A stretch of 64,000 nt of DNA from Neoarius graeffei. Its lineage: Eukaryota > Chordata > Actinopteri > Siluriformes > Ariidae. A program made the translations under genes and the position numbers. The first letter of the stretch is position 1; the number at the start of each line of letters is the position of its first letter. The stretch is taken from positions 38,233,835 to 38,297,834 of the forward strand of contig NC_083589.1 in the NCBI RefSeq assembly GCF_027579695.1, read 5' to 3'. The notes beneath the pieces were generated by a model. That model saw nothing but the letters and a program-made list of their open reading frames with translations. It had not been told where the DNA came from and ran no database searches. Of this stretch, positions 33,141-42,440 are shown piece after piece.

Positions 33141-36100
33141 TCAGCTAGGCTCAGAGTGCGTTAAACTCTTGAGAAGCACAAGCTTATTGGTTAATTTAAC
33201 ACTGAGTGGAGGAAACTGGGAAGCGTTGACTAGCAAGCGTTCGTAACCCTGGATGTAGATGAGCGGTTTGTGAGAGCCACCAAGTAGTGATATCAGTGTC
33301 ATGTTTGCCTCCATTAGTATATGCGAGTACGTCTTCATGAGTGGGTCTGTAGGCAGCAGATCTTCTCTCTTATCATACCTACAGGGTAGAGAGAGAGAGA
33401 TTAATTAAAAAAAAAGGGGGGGAGGGGTGTGTACTTCAACATACATACAGTATGACACCACTATGTTGCAGCTTTTTTTTTTTTAATCTTTACTCACCTC
33501 CACCTACTATTCAGCTCCAAGAAGCGCGAGACGCCTGTCTGTGCAGCGAGTACATCTATGTGCAAGTTCACGTCTTAACGAGAATCCGTATAGTCATGTT
33601 ACTGGATTTCACAGTATTTTTCTGGGTAATTTCCAAGTATTACAGGGTGTTTCAAAAAATTTGATATCACTTCAATTCTCGTTTAACTGAATTTTAAAAG
33701 CACGTGTGGAAACAGGTCAAAATTGTTTAATTTTTGTCCTTTTAGATATAGAAAATGCCATTCACTGGAAAAGAAAAGGCGTTTGTGCACGTTAGAGTAC
33801 GCTCCAACAAGACTGCAGCGTGCATTTATGGGAGAATTCTTTAAAAATGCACCAACTGCAGTGCAGATTTGGACATGGAACAAAAAGTTCAAAGAGGAAG
33901 GTTGACTGTGTGCGCGCACCTCAGGCGGCATGTATATTGAAAGTCTGAAATTGTTTATGGAATTCATGTACCTTTTGAATTTCTCATTCAAATTTTGAGG
34001 AATAAATCTTCTATCGCTCAACATTAAGCCTGTTCAGTTTCATTTGCAGAGACTATGTAGCTTCTGGGATATTTACAGCTCAAATAATATCAAACTTTTT
34101 GAAACACCCTGTATTTGTTACTACCAGAATGAACGTACCTGAATCAGCTGGTACTAACATGTGCAGTTCCTGCATGGCTTTGCCTCCTGGGTAGTTGTGA
34201 TGTGAAACGTATAATGAAATACTTGAATAAACACCATTTACCACCAAATGGCCAATTACAGCAAGAGACCCCATTTTATACAGCCACGACTTGTGATAGT
34301 TGTTTAAACTGAAACAGAAGGGGGAGGGGGAGAGAGACATTTCCTTAATCATGGTTTTTCACACCACTTTATATATATTATACTCTACTCATTAATAAGT
34401 GCTTCAACTCCAAAATAAAAGCCACAAAATCAGAGTACAAAGTATGTGAAAATTGGACACATTCATTCTACTGAAGCACAGCAAATAGTCAATCCAGTCA
34501 TTCGGTCACTTGCATGAAGGAACAGCCACGAGCCGCGACGACATTAAAGACGGGGAATGTGTAAATAATGAAGCGGAGTTCCTTGTGGGGCAGGAAGGAG
34601 TAAAGCAGGATGAAGCCCACGACGGGCATCAGCATCGTGTGCATCCGCCTGTCCAACAGACCAAATGGAACAAATATGATGGTGGCACCAAGAGCACGAG
34701 GAAGAGCCGAATAGAAGTACCAGAGAAAAGGGGAGGTTTATTGAGGGGAGATGGTCAAGGAAATACAGGAGGAGTGTTTTAGCAACTATCCAACAATTAG
34801 GCTCAATCTTCATGGATTACGGCGTTAGATAACGTAAAATAAGCAGAATCTTCCTCAGTAGAATTTGACTCCGATACTAAACGGAGCTCATGAATATACT
34901 GTAAAACATGCAACCCTTTTCTTCAGGCTATCAATTTTCTACTACAAATCCTCAAATTAATAAAATTATTCTGCTTTGGTTAAATTTGTGCACTCATCAA
35001 AAGAAAACATGCCCATGGTTTACCATGCATAACTAAAACTGGTTACAGCAGGAAAAAAGTATTGCTTTAGTATCTTTTGCAATATTAAGTAAGCACATTT
35101 TGTACACAGAAAAAAAAAAAAAGTTTTAGTATCCTCTCCAGAGCTCTGCACTATCCTCATTATTCAGTAGACTTAAGGCCCGGTCCCACAACACTGATAA
35201 CTGTAACTCCAACTATGACCGTCCCTATGGCCGAATTCAGTTCCAGTCTGGAGCAGTCACACCACAACTGTAATCCTGACTATAATATCGGTTGGTCCTG
35301 CCACTCAGGGAAATAAAACACATGCAACTTAGGAATAGTCATGGAAGTTTTTTCCAAGTAGTAGCACATTATTCCGGGTCACGCTGTACAGCTTGGACTT
35401 AAACAGCCTATGTACATACTCTAGCGGTTGATAAAATAAGGACAGGTCATGGACTACAGAAGTAAAACAAACAAGGTACAAAATACAGAGTGGTTACGGA
35501 TTTTAATACGGATGCTAACAAGATCAACTGTGAGCTACTGCTCACTTACGTATCCCCCCCGCTCTCGTTTGTATCAGAATGCAGGCAATCGAAGGAATAG
35601 GACACTTATGAATGTTGACTTCAATAAATAATTAACCCTGAAACAAGTAAAGAGCTGTGTCTCTCCCCAGGGATTTCAAATAGCATCCTGGTAAAATGTC
35701 ATTTTGAAATAGCATCAAAATCCACCGTGTGTTTCGTAAATACATTCAGTCGGTAAACAGGAAGTCGATGTGTGACAGACCTGAAAATGGTGTACGCGGT
35801 ATAGAACCCCAAGCTGAAGCTCGGTACCAAATATCAAGCAGTTGTGATTTGTAGTTGCTGAGAAAAGTTAAAGATTTTGTAAATCCACCCTATACGTTTC
35901 ATAAATAGATTAAGTCGGTAAATAGGAAGTTGATGTGCGACAGACCTGATTGGGGAGAAAAAGTATACATGGGTTAGAACCCCAAGCTGAAGTTTGGTAC
36001 GAAGTAGCTATGATTTGTGGTTGCTGAGAAAAAGGGTGTTTCGGACAGACAGAAATGCGGACGACCGCAAACCAGTATACGTTCCCCCCCGGAGCAGGAG

Positions 36101-39100
36101 TATAAATAATAATTTACGGCTTGGTCACGGATGTTTCAGTATATTACAGACTGGTTACCAATTTCATACAGATGATGCATCATGAATAAAAATTAAAAAT
36201 CTAAAAAACAGTTAAACATTTGGACTGCCAAAGTTCATAATTAAAATATCTTGTCTGCATTTTTTGTTTACTTTTAAGTTTACTATTGATATTTAATGGA
36301 AAAATCACATCTGTGAATAAAAGAGCTGTGCTTTGTATTATTTTTATTTTCCGTGAATCCATATTGCGTGACTTCATGATGCAACAAGGATGTACAAAAA
36401 TGCCTGGGGAAAACAGCATGTGCTCAGACAACGTCACATGTGAACAATTACCTGATTGGTCAGATGTTTTACCAGATCAGGTCCAGGCCTGGAAAAATGG
36501 CTCCAGAAGCACGCTCACCGATACGGATAAACCCAGGCCTGGGCTATAGGTATCGTTATCGGTCTGGTGTGGTGTGACCACCAATCACAAACTGCAGGGT
36601 ACTGATTTATTTATAATTATCGTTATCGGTATTGTGGGAGAACTTTTAGAAGCAGACATCTGAGAAAGCAGCTGTACAAACAGCCATCAGGTATGTAAAT
36701 GAACATTTAGATCATCAAGGAGCAAGCCAGAGGGGACAATACCAAGAATAACTAGAAAAGCACTCAGAGCGCAGACTCCCTGGACTCCCGCGGGACCTGA
36801 CGCAAAGCAGTGCGGTGCGGGACAAATTTTGAAAGCTCATTGCGGGCGCGAGGGGGAGTGCACAATGCGGGAGAGGTGATGAGCTGCAGTCCCACTAACT
36901 AAAAACGTGTTTAAAATAAAATGTATAAATTATTAATTTATGTCTATCGTATATAATTTGTGCTGGATATTTTATTTGGCATTAATAAAAACATTTTAAG
37001 ATGCCTAAATTTGCGGATGTGGTCCAATCTCGCATACGTTTCCAATTCCTTTCCGCTCTTCCGTGTTTGAGATCTCCGATCATGGCAGAAGAGCAGAGCT
37101 CCTCTAGTGAAGCTCACAGTGCTTCAGAAGTAAGTGCTGCTTTAAATTATAATTATATTAATTTCTTATAGGCCTACTTGTATTTCCTAAAATGTAAATG
37201 TGAGGAGTGACATAAGCTATGTGCAATGTACAATATCCTCAATATGCACTGTAGATTTTGGTAGGTGTGTTGGGTATCTCTGTAAAGCCTCAGCTGCGCA
37301 TGCCGCCTGGCAACGCGCACCCTCGCTACGTGCGCTAGGTGAAGGATCGGTCAGTGAAGAGCTCAGCATGTTTAATTCCCCAAGCCAATGACAAGAACTT
37401 TCGTGAGAAATAACACGAACGTCTGCATCATGCGGGATTTGCGGGCGGGAGCGGGACAAAATATGGCAGGCGTGGGCGGGAGCGGGACTGAAAAATCATA
37501 ATTCTTTGCGGGAGCGGGACTGCACAATGCAGGAGTGGGACTGAAAATTCTGTCCCACGCAGATCTCCGCCAAGAATCCTTTAAAAAAAAAAAATCCGGG
37601 ATCCAGAAGGTGATCCGGATCACCGCCAAAATTTAATGGATTGTTACTTGTGCCCAGTCACACCTCTGGAAAAAGTTTCAGAGCAATCCGTTCATAACTT
37701 TTTCCGTAATGTTGCTAACAGACAAACAAACAAACAAACAAACGCTACTGAAAACATAACCTCCTTGGCGGAGGTAGAAATTCCTAAAACGACATGAGGA
37801 AGAAAGAAATAAGAGGAACCAGACTCAAAACGGAAGCCGTCCTCTTCTGGGCGATAAGAGATAATATGACTAAATCATTACTACTTCACAACTGTACAGT
37901 ATAGTGTAAAGTCTTGCAATTGTTACAGGGTATACACAGAACAAGACTGTTTTTAAATGGCCGAAAGGATATTCCCCAGTTGGAGCTTTTGTTCAAGATG
38001 GTGTTGTACCAGAGAACCTGGCCTTCAGGCCACAGCAGCCTCCTCCAGAACACAGAGTCAACACCAACAGTGAAACCTGCAAAAATAAAAAGTACGCTTA
38101 CTGCAAAGCTGCACATAAAAACAAGCAGCCCGTACATTCAAAATAGCACTTACCCAGTGACAAAATGCCAGCAGGGACAGCAAAATAAAGCAGCTTTTTA
38201 ATACTGAGTTTCCTGGACATAAGTGACATCAGCAGCATGAGTCCGAGCAGGAGGCACAGCTCGGAGCGGAACACGATGATAACAAAAGCGGACAGCATTA
38301 TGAACGGGCCGTGCCTTTGAGCCATCCAGGATGTGAATGCCAGCAAAACTGTGAAATAAAAGTGTGTCAGGTTCACATACAGCTTTAGCTTCATAAACTA
38401 TTTGTATCCCGAACAATACAACATGGAAAAGTAATGTGCAATTAGTACGACAAACAGTAACTAATTCTCATAACATACACTGCCCTGCCAAAAAAAAAAA
38501 ATCATGCACTTTAATATTTCCTTGGCCTGCCTTTAGCTGTCATTACAGCATGCATTCACCATGGCATTGTTTCAATAAACTTATGCAATGTCACAACAAG
38601 TCCAGAGTTGTATTAATTTTTCACCAAGATCTCATGTTGAGGCCGGGAGAGTTGAACCACTGTGTAAAGTCTTCTCCAGCACATCCCAAAGATTCTCAAT
38701 AGGGTTAAGGTCAGGACTCTGTGGTGGCCAATTCACGTGTGAAAAGGATTCCTCATGTTCCTTGAACCACTTTTTCACAATCCGAGCCCCAATTTTAATC
38801 CCGTGCCATCGGGGGGGGGATTAAATAAATAAAATTGACATGATAACCTGGTCATTTAGTGCATTCAGATAGTCTGCGGACTTCATTTTATTACCCCATA
38901 ACGTTACTGAGCCTCAACGTGACCAACTGAAGCAACCCTGGATCATAACATTGCCTTCAGAGGCTTGTACAGCAGCCACTATGCATGATGGGTGCATCGC
39001 TTCATGGGCTTCCCTTCTTACCCTGACATACCCGTCACTCAGGAATAGGGTAAATCTGGACTGATCAGACCACATGACCTTTTCCCATTGCTCCAGAGTC

Positions 39101-41390
39101 CAAGCTTTATGCTTCCTAGCAAATTGAATCCTTTTCTTCTGATTAAATCTCAAACAAGTGGTTTTCTTATGGTCATACAGCTGTTTAGTACCAATCCTGT
39201 GAGGTCTCATCACATTGCAAGTGTGGAAATGCTTTTACTTTCACTATTAAACAGTCATGAGTTCTACTGTCGATTTTTTTTATGATTCAACTTCAAGTAT
39301 TTAAGTTATCTCTGATCATAGTCAGTCAGGATCTTTCTCCGACCACATTTTTAAAAAATTTTTTTCCACGAAGTTGACGGTTCACCACTATCCTTCCAGG
39401 TTGTAATAATGCCTTGGACAGTTCTTAACCCAATTCCAGTAATCTCCTTAGTTGTTTTCTTTAGTTGATGCAGGCCAATTATTTAGCCTTTCTGAAACAG
39501 TAACATCTTTTCCATGAGCACGGGATACATTTTCCGACATGTTTAAGAAACGAGAAGCTACTCACTGCATCAGTGATGGATAAAAGAATTGCTTCCAGCT
39601 GAAACACATTAATCACTACAGTAACTATCCAACCAAGGGCTCTTGTGTATGTGCTTATTTAAATCCAAAAAGAGACTTTTTTTTGCCAGGCAGTGTACAT
39701 TATTCCTTGATGTTATATGCACACGTACTTCCAGTTTAAAAAAAATATATAAAATAAACTAAATTAAAAAAAAAAAAAAAACACACCTATAGGCAGAGCG
39801 AATATGTTCGGTAGAGTCCTTGTGCTGTAAAACATCAGGTGAAACTGTGACGCACACATCAGGCAGAAAAGGCCAGAGACCAGCGATCCAAACTGTCTCC
39901 GTACCTGTTGCTGCATGTGCCATAGAGCCAGGCAGACGCACATCCCCAAAACAGTACGCACTGTGGAGAACACAATATCAATACCAACCACATGCCAGTG
40001 TGCACAAGAAAACTGGATTGAAAAAGCACACTCTGGGTAGTCCTTTAGAACTGACACACATACCAATAGTCTGTGTGTAAAACTTTGGAGCCTCAAGGTG
40101 GGAGAGTAAAACGGTCATAGGTGCGCTGAGCACCGAGACAAACAACGGTCCAAGGAAGGTACGAGGAACCACACCAGGGAATTCATGATGATCATACTGA
40201 AAGGAAGAAAACACAGTTAGGTACTACAGACAAACTAGTGAACATCATGGACGATGCCAGTCACCCTCTGCACACCGTCATCAGCAACCAGAGGAGCCTG
40301 TTCAGTGACAGAATGCTCCTTCCCAAGTGCAGGACGAACAGACTTAAAAACTCCTTTGTCCCTCACGCCATCAGACTGTACAACTCCTCTCTGGGACAGA
40401 GGACGGGAAGGAGCAGTAGCCTAGTCTGACAATGTGCAATACCTCTGGACTTTTTTTCATAGCTTTTCATCTCATCTCATTATCTCTAGCCGCTTTATCC
40501 TGTTCTACAGGGTCGCAGGCAAGCTGGAGCCTATCCCAGCTGACTACGGGCGAAAGGCGGGGTACACCCTGGACAAGTCACCAGGTCATCACAGGGCTGA
40601 CACATAGACACAGACAACCATTCACACTCACATTCACACCTACGGTCAATTTAGAGTCACCAGTTAACCTAACCTGCATGTCTTTGGACTGTGGGGGAAA
40701 CCGGAGCACCCGGAGGAAACCCACGCGGACACGGGGAGAACATGCAAACTCCGCACAGAAAGGCCCTCGCCGGCCACGGGGCTCGAACCCGGACCTTCTT
40801 GCTGTGAGGCGACAGCGCTAACCACTACACCACCGTGCCACCTAATATACTTGTATATTTAAATTTATTTATCTAGAAGTTTTCTAAAGACTTAATTTAT
40901 CTAGAAGTTCTCTCTTTTCTATTCTCTGTTTATACTATAATGATGCTATTGATGGATTTTAATTTCCCTGAGGGAACCCTCCCAAAGGGATCAATAAAGT
41001 TCCATCTAATCTAATCTAATCTAATGGAACAGATCTCAGGATGGAGGATGTCTGACCCATAGAAATCTGAGTGCATGCTAGACTTTAGACTTGGGTCCAT
41101 AAGCAATGTTAAACAACTTTCCATCAAACTAATAAGACAAAATGGAACTAAGCCAGGACTCACTCCAGGACTGAAATAATACAAACCATCATTTCACTAG
41201 AATTATGAAAAGTATAATTCCAGGTGCTCACCTTCTCCAAATCAAACCTGTGATAAAGAATATCATGAATGGCTTGCAAGTTGAAACTCTCTTCGACTTT
41301 GGTAAAAGGACACGCTATTAAATGCAGAGAAATTACAGAGATCAGTAAGATAAACTGAGGGAGCTGGGGAACGCTTCGCTTCCGCGCCAT
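33141..41390 (-). CDS. alg12: ALG12, dolichyl-P-Man:Man7GlcNAc2-PP-dolichol alpha-1,6-mannosyltransferase
   Basis: Nine coding exons in transcript order: 41390-41232, 40196-40064, 39960-39787, 38348-38154, 38076-37973, 34737-34514, 34308-34139, 33573-33498, 33378-33141. Together they give 1,473 nt, 490 codons plus stop, close to the human 488 aa. The enzyme is a GT22 multi-pass ER membrane protein adding the eighth mannose on the lumenal side during N-glycan precursor assembly. The diagnostic first lumenal loop '[10 protein letters not shown]' is at residues 30-39; '[10 protein letters not shown]', '[11 protein letters not shown]', '[10 protein letters not shown]' and 'NYPGGKAMQ' follow as in vertebrate orthologues. 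The start at 41390 (MARKRSV...) matches the orthologue length; an in-frame ATG at 41498 would add 36 residues and is less likely. Exon 5-6 has a U12-like donor and exon 6-7 a GC donor; both choices are forced by frame and homology. creld2 lies divergent at 52.1 kb. Confidence 0.93.
33643..34111 (+). mobile_element. Mariner-like 469-bp element in alg12 intron 7
   Basis: The ends CAGGGTGTTTCAAAAA and TTTTTGAAACACCCTG are inverted and flanked by TA on both sides. Inside, a frame (with one shift) reads '[10 protein letters not shown]' and then '[18 protein letters not shown]'. That is the N-terminal helix-turn-helix segment (Pfam DUF4817 type) which I know mainly from arthropod mariner-family elements. 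The catalytic part is missing. Confidence 0.8.
34508..34513 (-). other. alg12: GC-type 5' splice site of alg12 intron 6
   Basis: Exon 6 ends 'TCCTTCAT' followed by GCAAGT, the standard form of GC donors. The nearby GT (CAA|GTGACC) would break the frame with the only acceptor in front of 'LNNYHKSW'. GC gives 'CSFILNNY', matching 'CSYLLNNY' in the human protein. Confidence 0.75.
34754..34762 (-). other. alg12: U12-type branch site of alg12 intron 5
   Basis: TTCCTTGAC matches the U12 branch-site consensus TTCCTTRAY at every position. It lies 17 nt before the exon start at 34737. There is no polypyrimidine-AG acceptor here, as expected for a minor-class intron. Confidence 0.75.
35176..36645. repeat. 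Probable DNA transposon with eroded inverted ends (GGTCCCACAAC...)
   Basis: The left end 'CCCACAACACTGATAACTG' resembles the inverse of the right end ('CGTTATCGGTATTGTGGG'), about 17 of 22 positions. Between them lie two direct repeats of about 155 bp (around 35720-35878 and 35879-36040) sharing 'aggaagt.gatgtg.gacag' and 'aaccccaagctgaag'. No coding frame is present. It is in alg12 intron 5. Confidence 0.45.
36772..37565 (+). mobile_element. Relative of the 6332-9476 hAT, shorter copy
   Basis: It shares 'gactcccgcgggacc', 'gggacaaattttgaaagctc' and the 'taaaaacattttaagatgcc' stretch with the 6.3-kb copy, and ends with the same 'gcgggcgggagcgggac' units. An ATG at 37082 starts '[16 protein letters not shown]' followed by a GTAAGT donor, possibly the first transposase exon. 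The ends are not flanked by a clear duplication. Confidence 0.55.
37580..37780. repeat. Dispersed repeat with 'cctccttggcggagg' end
   Basis: It contains 'ccgggatccagaaggtgat', 'gagcaatccgttcataac', a (CAAA)n run and the terminal 'aacctccttggcggaggtag'. A related sequence ('ctctgccaacttttgttgg...cttggcggaggtgtg') lies at 22790-22955. It is a multi-copy fish repeat, class uncertain. Confidence 0.45.
37964..37972 (-). other. alg12: U12-type (AT) 5' splice site of alg12 intron 5
   Basis: Exon 5 ends 'AACTGGGGA' (N W G), then ATATCCTTT, an exact match to the AT-AC class U12 donor. No GT donor exists near the place where homology to ALG12 stops. In frame the next exon must start ACC at 34737, giving the dinucleotide AA (34739-34738) at the intron end; using the adjacent AC (34737-34736) would shift the frame by two bases. 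Confidence 0.75.
38478..39695 (-). mobile_element. Tc1-like transposon, decayed, in alg12 intron 3
   Basis: The ends CACTGCC(CT)GCCAAAAA and TTTTTGCCAGGCAGTG are inverted and bounded by TA on both sides. On the minus strand, 39213-38914 reads a transposase piece with '[20 protein letters not shown]' containing the first catalytic Asp. Stops and a short total length mark it as dead. Confidence 0.8.
40237..41030 (+). mobile_element. LINE 3' end (Rex1/L2-like), interrupted by a SINE
   Basis: The last codons of an RT-type LINE ORF read '[20 protein letters not shown]' and on to '[19 protein letters not shown]' before a TAG. The 3' UTR ends 'gggatcaataaagttccatc' and then (TCTAA)n. A SINE (40468-40842) splits the UTR. 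It lies in alg12 intron 1. Confidence 0.75.
40468..40842 (-). repeat. tRNA-derived SINE, full length
   Basis: Reverse orientation: 'catctcatctcattatctc' tail first and 'accactacaccaccgtgcc' (the A-box side) last. It was inserted into the LINE 3' end that surrounds it. Confidence 0.85.
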
Positions 41391-41805: not shown

Positions 41806-42180
41806 CATCTCATCTCACTATCTCTAGCCGCTTTATCCTGTTCTACAGGGTTGCAGGCAAGCTGGAGCCTATCCCAGCTGACTACGGGCGAAAGGTGGGG
41901 TACACCCTGGACAAGTCGCCAGGTCATCACAGGGCTGACACAGACACAGACAACCATTCACACTCACATTCACACCTACGGTCAATTTAGAGTCACCAGT
42001 TAACCTAACCTGCATGTCTTTGGACTGTGGGGGAAACCGGAGCACCCGGAGGAAACCCACGCGGACACGGGGAGAACATGCAAACTCCACACAGAAAGGC
42101 CCTCGCCGGCCACGGGGCTCGAACCCAGAACCTTCTTGCTGTGAGGCAACAGCGCTAACCACTGCACCACCGTGCCGCCC
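41806..42180 (-). repeat. tRNA-derived SINE, full length with target duplication
   Basis: Reverse orientation, flanked by CACCATGTAACA on both sides (ends near 41805; restarts at 42181). The body matches the family throughout. Confidence 0.9.
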
Positions 42181-42440
42181 CACCATGTAACATAATCATA
42201 GAAATACACAGGTTATGCGTTTTCTAAGTTTATATAATGTTGTTTATTACAACCCATCCATCCATTATCTGTAGCTGCTTATCCTGTTCTACAGGATCGC
42301 AGGCAAACTGGAGCCTATCCCAGCTGATTATGGGTGAGAGGCAGGGTACACCCTGGACAAGTCGCCAGATCATCGCAGAGCTGACAAACAACCATTCACA
42401 CATACAGTCAATTTAGAGCCACCAATTAACCTAACCTGCA

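Follow-up and report, generated by a model that had tools for sequence, protein, structure and literature searches.

Intron 5 of alg12, as found in a 64-kb stretch of the Neoarius graeffei genome (hereafter the window), starts with AT and apparently ends with AA, with an AC lying two bases further downstream, out of frame. This raises two questions: whether the intron is removed by the minor spliceosome and, in that case, whether it truly has AT-AA termini.

The alg12 gene of Neoarius graeffei

We rebuilt alg12 on the minus strand of the window, picking the exon boundaries by homology and splice consensus. The resulting model has a coding sequence of 1,473 nt in nine coding exons, with no internal stops and consistent phases, and its product is a protein of 490 aa.

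33141..41390, minus strand: alg12 coding region, nine coding exons, 490 aa, Glyco_transf_22 family
41390-41232, minus strand: coding exon 1 (rebuilt model)
40196-40064, minus strand: coding exon 2 (rebuilt model)
39960-39787, minus strand: coding exon 3 (rebuilt model)
38348-38154, minus strand: coding exon 4 (rebuilt model)
38076-37973, minus strand: coding exon 5, 3' end AAC TGG GGA (NWG)
34737-34514, minus strand: coding exon 6, 5' start ACC TCC CCT (TSP)
34308-34139, minus strand: coding exon 7 (rebuilt model)
33573-33498, minus strand: coding exon 8 (rebuilt model)
33378-33141, minus strand: coding exon 9 (rebuilt model)

Pfam comparisons found an Alg9-like domain in the protein, PF03901 (Glyco_transf_22), with 155.3 bits. 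Its best structure match is 9s6t_A, a solved structure named Mannosyltransferase, which aligns over residues 2-485 with 692.6 bits; the ALG9 chain 9s6s gives a weak match (19.7 bits, E 0.0036). We take this 490-aa mannosyltransferase to be ALG12. Its nine coding exons are consistent with the exon layout of human ALG12 as described in the available text of PMC11846398, where coding starts in exon 2 and the cDNA amplicon spanned exons 1 to 10.

Exon 6 is flanked on both sides by introns with non-GT donors, because intron 6 (34513-34309, minus strand) looks GC-AG, with exon 6 ending in ...TTC AT followed by GCAAGT. The donor AT/GCAAGT is the sole placement by eye that keeps the frame, and gives ILNNY, matching 9s6t. 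A frameshift between exons 6 and 7 had been suspected, as would fit an assembly error, but was rejected because the junction resolves with this GC-AG donor.

The locus also contains several repeats. Intron 7 holds an inverted repeat with arms of 32 nt (33641-33672 and 34082-34113) that are 91% complementary, lie 409 nt apart and begin with TACAGGGTGTTTCAAAAA; the arrangement resembles a short non-autonomous transposon. Intron 3 carries, at 38632-39234 on the minus strand, the remnants of a DDE_3 transposase, presumably Tc1-like, in which the ORF 38632-38820 matches PF13358 with 38.1 bits and the neighbouring ORF 38914-39234 has no Pfam match. The minus-strand ORFs 40578-40817 and 41869-42195 have a long similar stretch in common, so that a repeat element occurs twice, once within intron 1 and once ahead of the alg12 coding start.

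Exact minor-spliceosome motifs lie at both ends of intron 5

The features that define intron 5 are as follows.

34738..37972, minus strand: alg12 intron 5, 3,235 nt, phase 0, U12-type, apparent AT-AA termini
37964..37972, minus strand: U12-type 5' splice site ATATCCTTT, exact match, per-position chance 1.7e-5
34754..34762, minus strand: U12-type branch motif TTCCTTGAC, exact match, branch A taken as 34755
34738..34739, minus strand: AA terminal dinucleotide of intron 5, last intron base 17 nt from the branch A
34736..34737, minus strand: AC two bases downstream of the AA end, out of frame

The junction reads GGGGA / ATATCCTTT...CTCAATAA / ACCTCC. The donor ATATCCTTT, sited at the point where the homology breaks, agrees with the consensus RTATCCTTT in 9/9 positions. 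Likewise, TTCCTTGAC agrees with TTCCTTRAC in 9/9 positions and is the sole match to it inside intron 5 with no mismatches. The intron contains only one other donor-like sequence (1 mismatch, 2,004 nt in) and only one other branch-like sequence (1 mismatch, 609 nt from its end). An earlier note on this DNA had reported an exact donor at 37972-37964 and an exact branch motif at 34762-34754, and both are indeed present there on the minus strand; it was also right that the codon preceding 34737 is TAA and that use of the AC two bases further, at 34737-34736, would shift the frame. The distance from the branch A to the 3' end is 17 nt with the AA and 19 nt with the downstream AC, both longer than the 11-13 nt given as optimal for U12-type introns in PMC3584512.

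Single motifs are unremarkable across the 64-kb window, where RTATCCTTT was found twice vs 1.09 times expected and TTCCTTRAC once vs 1.30, so that the argument depends on where they lie, one at each end of a forced break. When intron 5 was subjected to 300 dinucleotide shuffles, the per-position chance of an exact match was 1.7e-5 for the donor and 1.3e-5 for the branch motif. Finding a donor precisely at the break together with a branch motif in one of the ca. 30 allowed positions before the exon has a chance of roughly 7e-9, calculated as a product of shuffle frequencies that assumes independence.

The protein is continuous across the exon 5/6 junction

The alignment of alg12 with 9s6t_A is ungapped through the NWG/TSP junction, and the weakly matching ALG9 chain 9s6s (E 0.0036) shows GT at the same spot. 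A search of prokaryote genomes for relatives of exon 6 returned 73 pattern matches, three of which were confirmed, all of them bacterial; none of the 14 pattern matches from a search of viral contigs was confirmed. The three bacterial relatives (L001, L002 and L003), which we assumed to be without spliceosomal introns, come from metagenome-assembled genomes (MAGs), two of them labelled as myxobacterial, and are mannosyltransferase relatives with a common HKELRFII motif; they served solely as a check on the junction. The tblastn match spans the junction in L003 alone, and L001 and L002 were translated further upstream before pairwise alignment. All three are ungapped at the junction in the pairwise alignments, reading WGTAP (L003), YGTSP (L002) and WGVQP (L001). 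At the position that opens exon 6, four of the five relatives thus have Thr (9s6t, 9s6s, L003 and L002) and the fifth has Val (L001).

The ungapped alignments to 9s6t and to the three bacterial relatives indicate that nothing is missing between exons 5 and 6. The earlier note had argued that the frame and the homology (NWG/TSP) set the start of exon 6 at 34737, and this agrees both with the ungapped 9s6t alignment and with the best junction score described below.

AT-AA is the best of the in-frame junctions

We enumerated a grid of 18,271 pairs, formed by donors at -60 to +60 and acceptors at -90 to +60 relative to the proposed ends, and retained those that were in frame, had no stop and belonged to one of the classes GT/GC-AG, AT-AN or GT-AC/AT/AA. 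This left 33 junctions, which were ranked by their score against the corresponding 9s6t stretch. The AT-AA junction at the proposed ends obtained the top score (174), followed by an AT-AC junction with both cuts displaced by +2 (168), which changes Thr to Ile; the remaining junctions scored 156 or less. Pfam gave 155.3 bits to the Thr version vs 153.0 to the Ile version.

The grid contained no GT-AG or GC-AG junction that was in frame and stop-free, in line with the earlier claim that U2-type sites are lacking at the ALG12 break. Upstream of exon 6, the closest AG starts at a distance of 50 nt, and the exon itself has none within its first 60 nt. Joining the consensus donor to the AC at 34737-34736 produces a frameshift with a stop after 318 aa, and retention of intron 5 adds 28 residues before a stop.

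Intron 5 is almost certainly U12-type and probably ends in AA

The motifs, the frame, the homology over the junction and the lack of an in-frame U2-type junction in the grid are direct observations. The exactly matching motifs at the break, the absence of U2-type junctions from the grid and the minor intron reported for human ALG12 make it almost certain that alg12 intron 5 is U12-type, and the protein fit points to AT-AA as its most likely termini; we consider it probable that these are its true ends, with the exact cut deduced from the sequence. What speaks against AT-AA is the branch-to-end distance of 17 nt, the smallness of the Pfam gap between Thr and Ile, and the Val found at the Thr position in one of the three bacterial relatives.

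As a member of the A-type (AT-AN) subclass of minor-spliceosome introns, intron 5 would be processed as expected from established knowledge: ATATCCTTT would be recognised by U11 and then by U6atac, and U12 would pair with TTCCTTGAC around the branch A at 34755. Cleavage by the minor spliceosome would presumably follow the AA at 34739-34738, so that GGA and ACC are ligated with the frame kept and encode NWG-TSP. The downstream AC, the usual partner of AT, is only two bases off and could compete with the AA end, and splicing at non-canonical ends is described as often less efficient in PMC3584512.

The earlier note had left two options, a true AT-AA intron or an AT-AC intron masked by a sequence difference, and these stay the main ones. 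In the second, the intron would be AT-AC and an assembly error or the allele of this individual would mimic AT-AA, which we judge unlikely. A single base change would presumably suffice, and table 2 of PMC7367187 assigns 22% of zebrafish U12 introns to AT-AC and 2.7% to 'other', AT-AC being far commoner than the other non-GT endings; however, the rest of the 1,473-nt alg12 coding sequence is free of frame corrections, its boundaries having been picked by homology and splice consensus.

To these we add a third option, an AT-AC intron in which each cut falls two bases further downstream (the donor being GGAAT / ATCCTTT and the acceptor AATAAAC / CTCC), resulting in NWG-ISP. This junction keeps the frame, is stop-free, ranks second of the 33 and loses only 2.3 Pfam bits, and the Val of L001 shows that a branched hydrophobic residue is possible at the Thr site. 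Nevertheless, it appears quite improbable, because its donor, ATCCTTTCG, fits only 3/9 consensus positions, a Thr is shared by 9s6t, ALG9 9s6s and 2/3 bacterial relatives, and the branch-to-end distance grows to 19 nt.

It is also conceivable that the consensus donor is mostly joined to the downstream AC, leaving much of the transcript frameshifted and unproductive. AT is usually paired with AC, and 3' splice-site choice in U12-type introns is reported as error-prone in PMC3584512, but the distance of 19 nt is further off the optimum and alg12 is otherwise intact, so that sufficient in-frame product is probably made; we thus regard predominant use of this AC as very improbable. Some use of it, with frameshift, is nonetheless plausible given the error-prone 3' choice, the lower efficiency of non-canonical ends (PMC3584512) and the distances of 17 and 19 nt. 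The chance is similarly slim that the minor spliceosome recognises the downstream AC while the cut falls at the upstream, in-frame AA. A similar offset has been put to the test in AG-less sites of the U2 type, where, according to the available text of PMC10853781, the upstream site turned out not to depend on the downstream AG, which counts against such a separation of recognition and cleavage; in the literature examined we found no test of it for a U12-type intron. Finally, a U2-type intron, or an additional exon within 34.7-37.9 kb, is highly improbable; nothing was found in its favour, the grid lacks in-frame GT-AG/GC-AG junctions and no residues are missing at the junction relative to 9s6t and the three bacterial relatives.

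Comparison with known minor introns

Human ALG12 is also reported to contain a minor intron, whose raised retention in Roifman syndrome is listed as 38.5% in affected vs 8.0% in unaffected individuals (PMC4667643, table 3). Its likeness to alg12 intron 5 is at the gene level, both being minor-class introns of the same gene. By analogy, the two are likely to share their position as well, since 91% of human minor introns are cited as conserved in zebrafish in the available text of PMC10639083. The ALG12 intron-1 variant described in PMC11846398, as far as its available text goes, is unrelated to intron 5.

Neither ALG12 nor AT-AA appears in the main text of the minor-intron papers PMC7367187 and PMC6717393, and ALG12 is absent from the main text of PMC10853781; our literature search returned no papers on U12 introns under the spelling AU-AA. 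The AT-AA ending is, however, a documented subtype: the available text of PMC10639083 gives it as the commonest non-canonical ending of minor introns in animals, and that of PMC8280824 lists it in the A-type class, which needs CENATAC for its splicing. The word "rare" in the earlier description of a "rare AT-AA U12 intron" therefore needs to be qualified.

With its perfectly matching donor and branch motifs, a non-canonical AA that lies beyond the optimal distance and a frame-breaking AC two bases off, alg12 intron 5 is a clean candidate for studying how the minor spliceosome chooses its 3' end. It has the AT donor, the U12 branch motif and the apparent AA end of the AT-AA subtype of A-type minor introns, and its particulars are the 17 nt from the branch A to the end, where the optimum is 11-13, and the out-of-frame AC two bases downstream. 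In all, it is most likely one more case of a documented subtype, found in a gene for which a minor intron had been reported before, and a modest addition to these systems.
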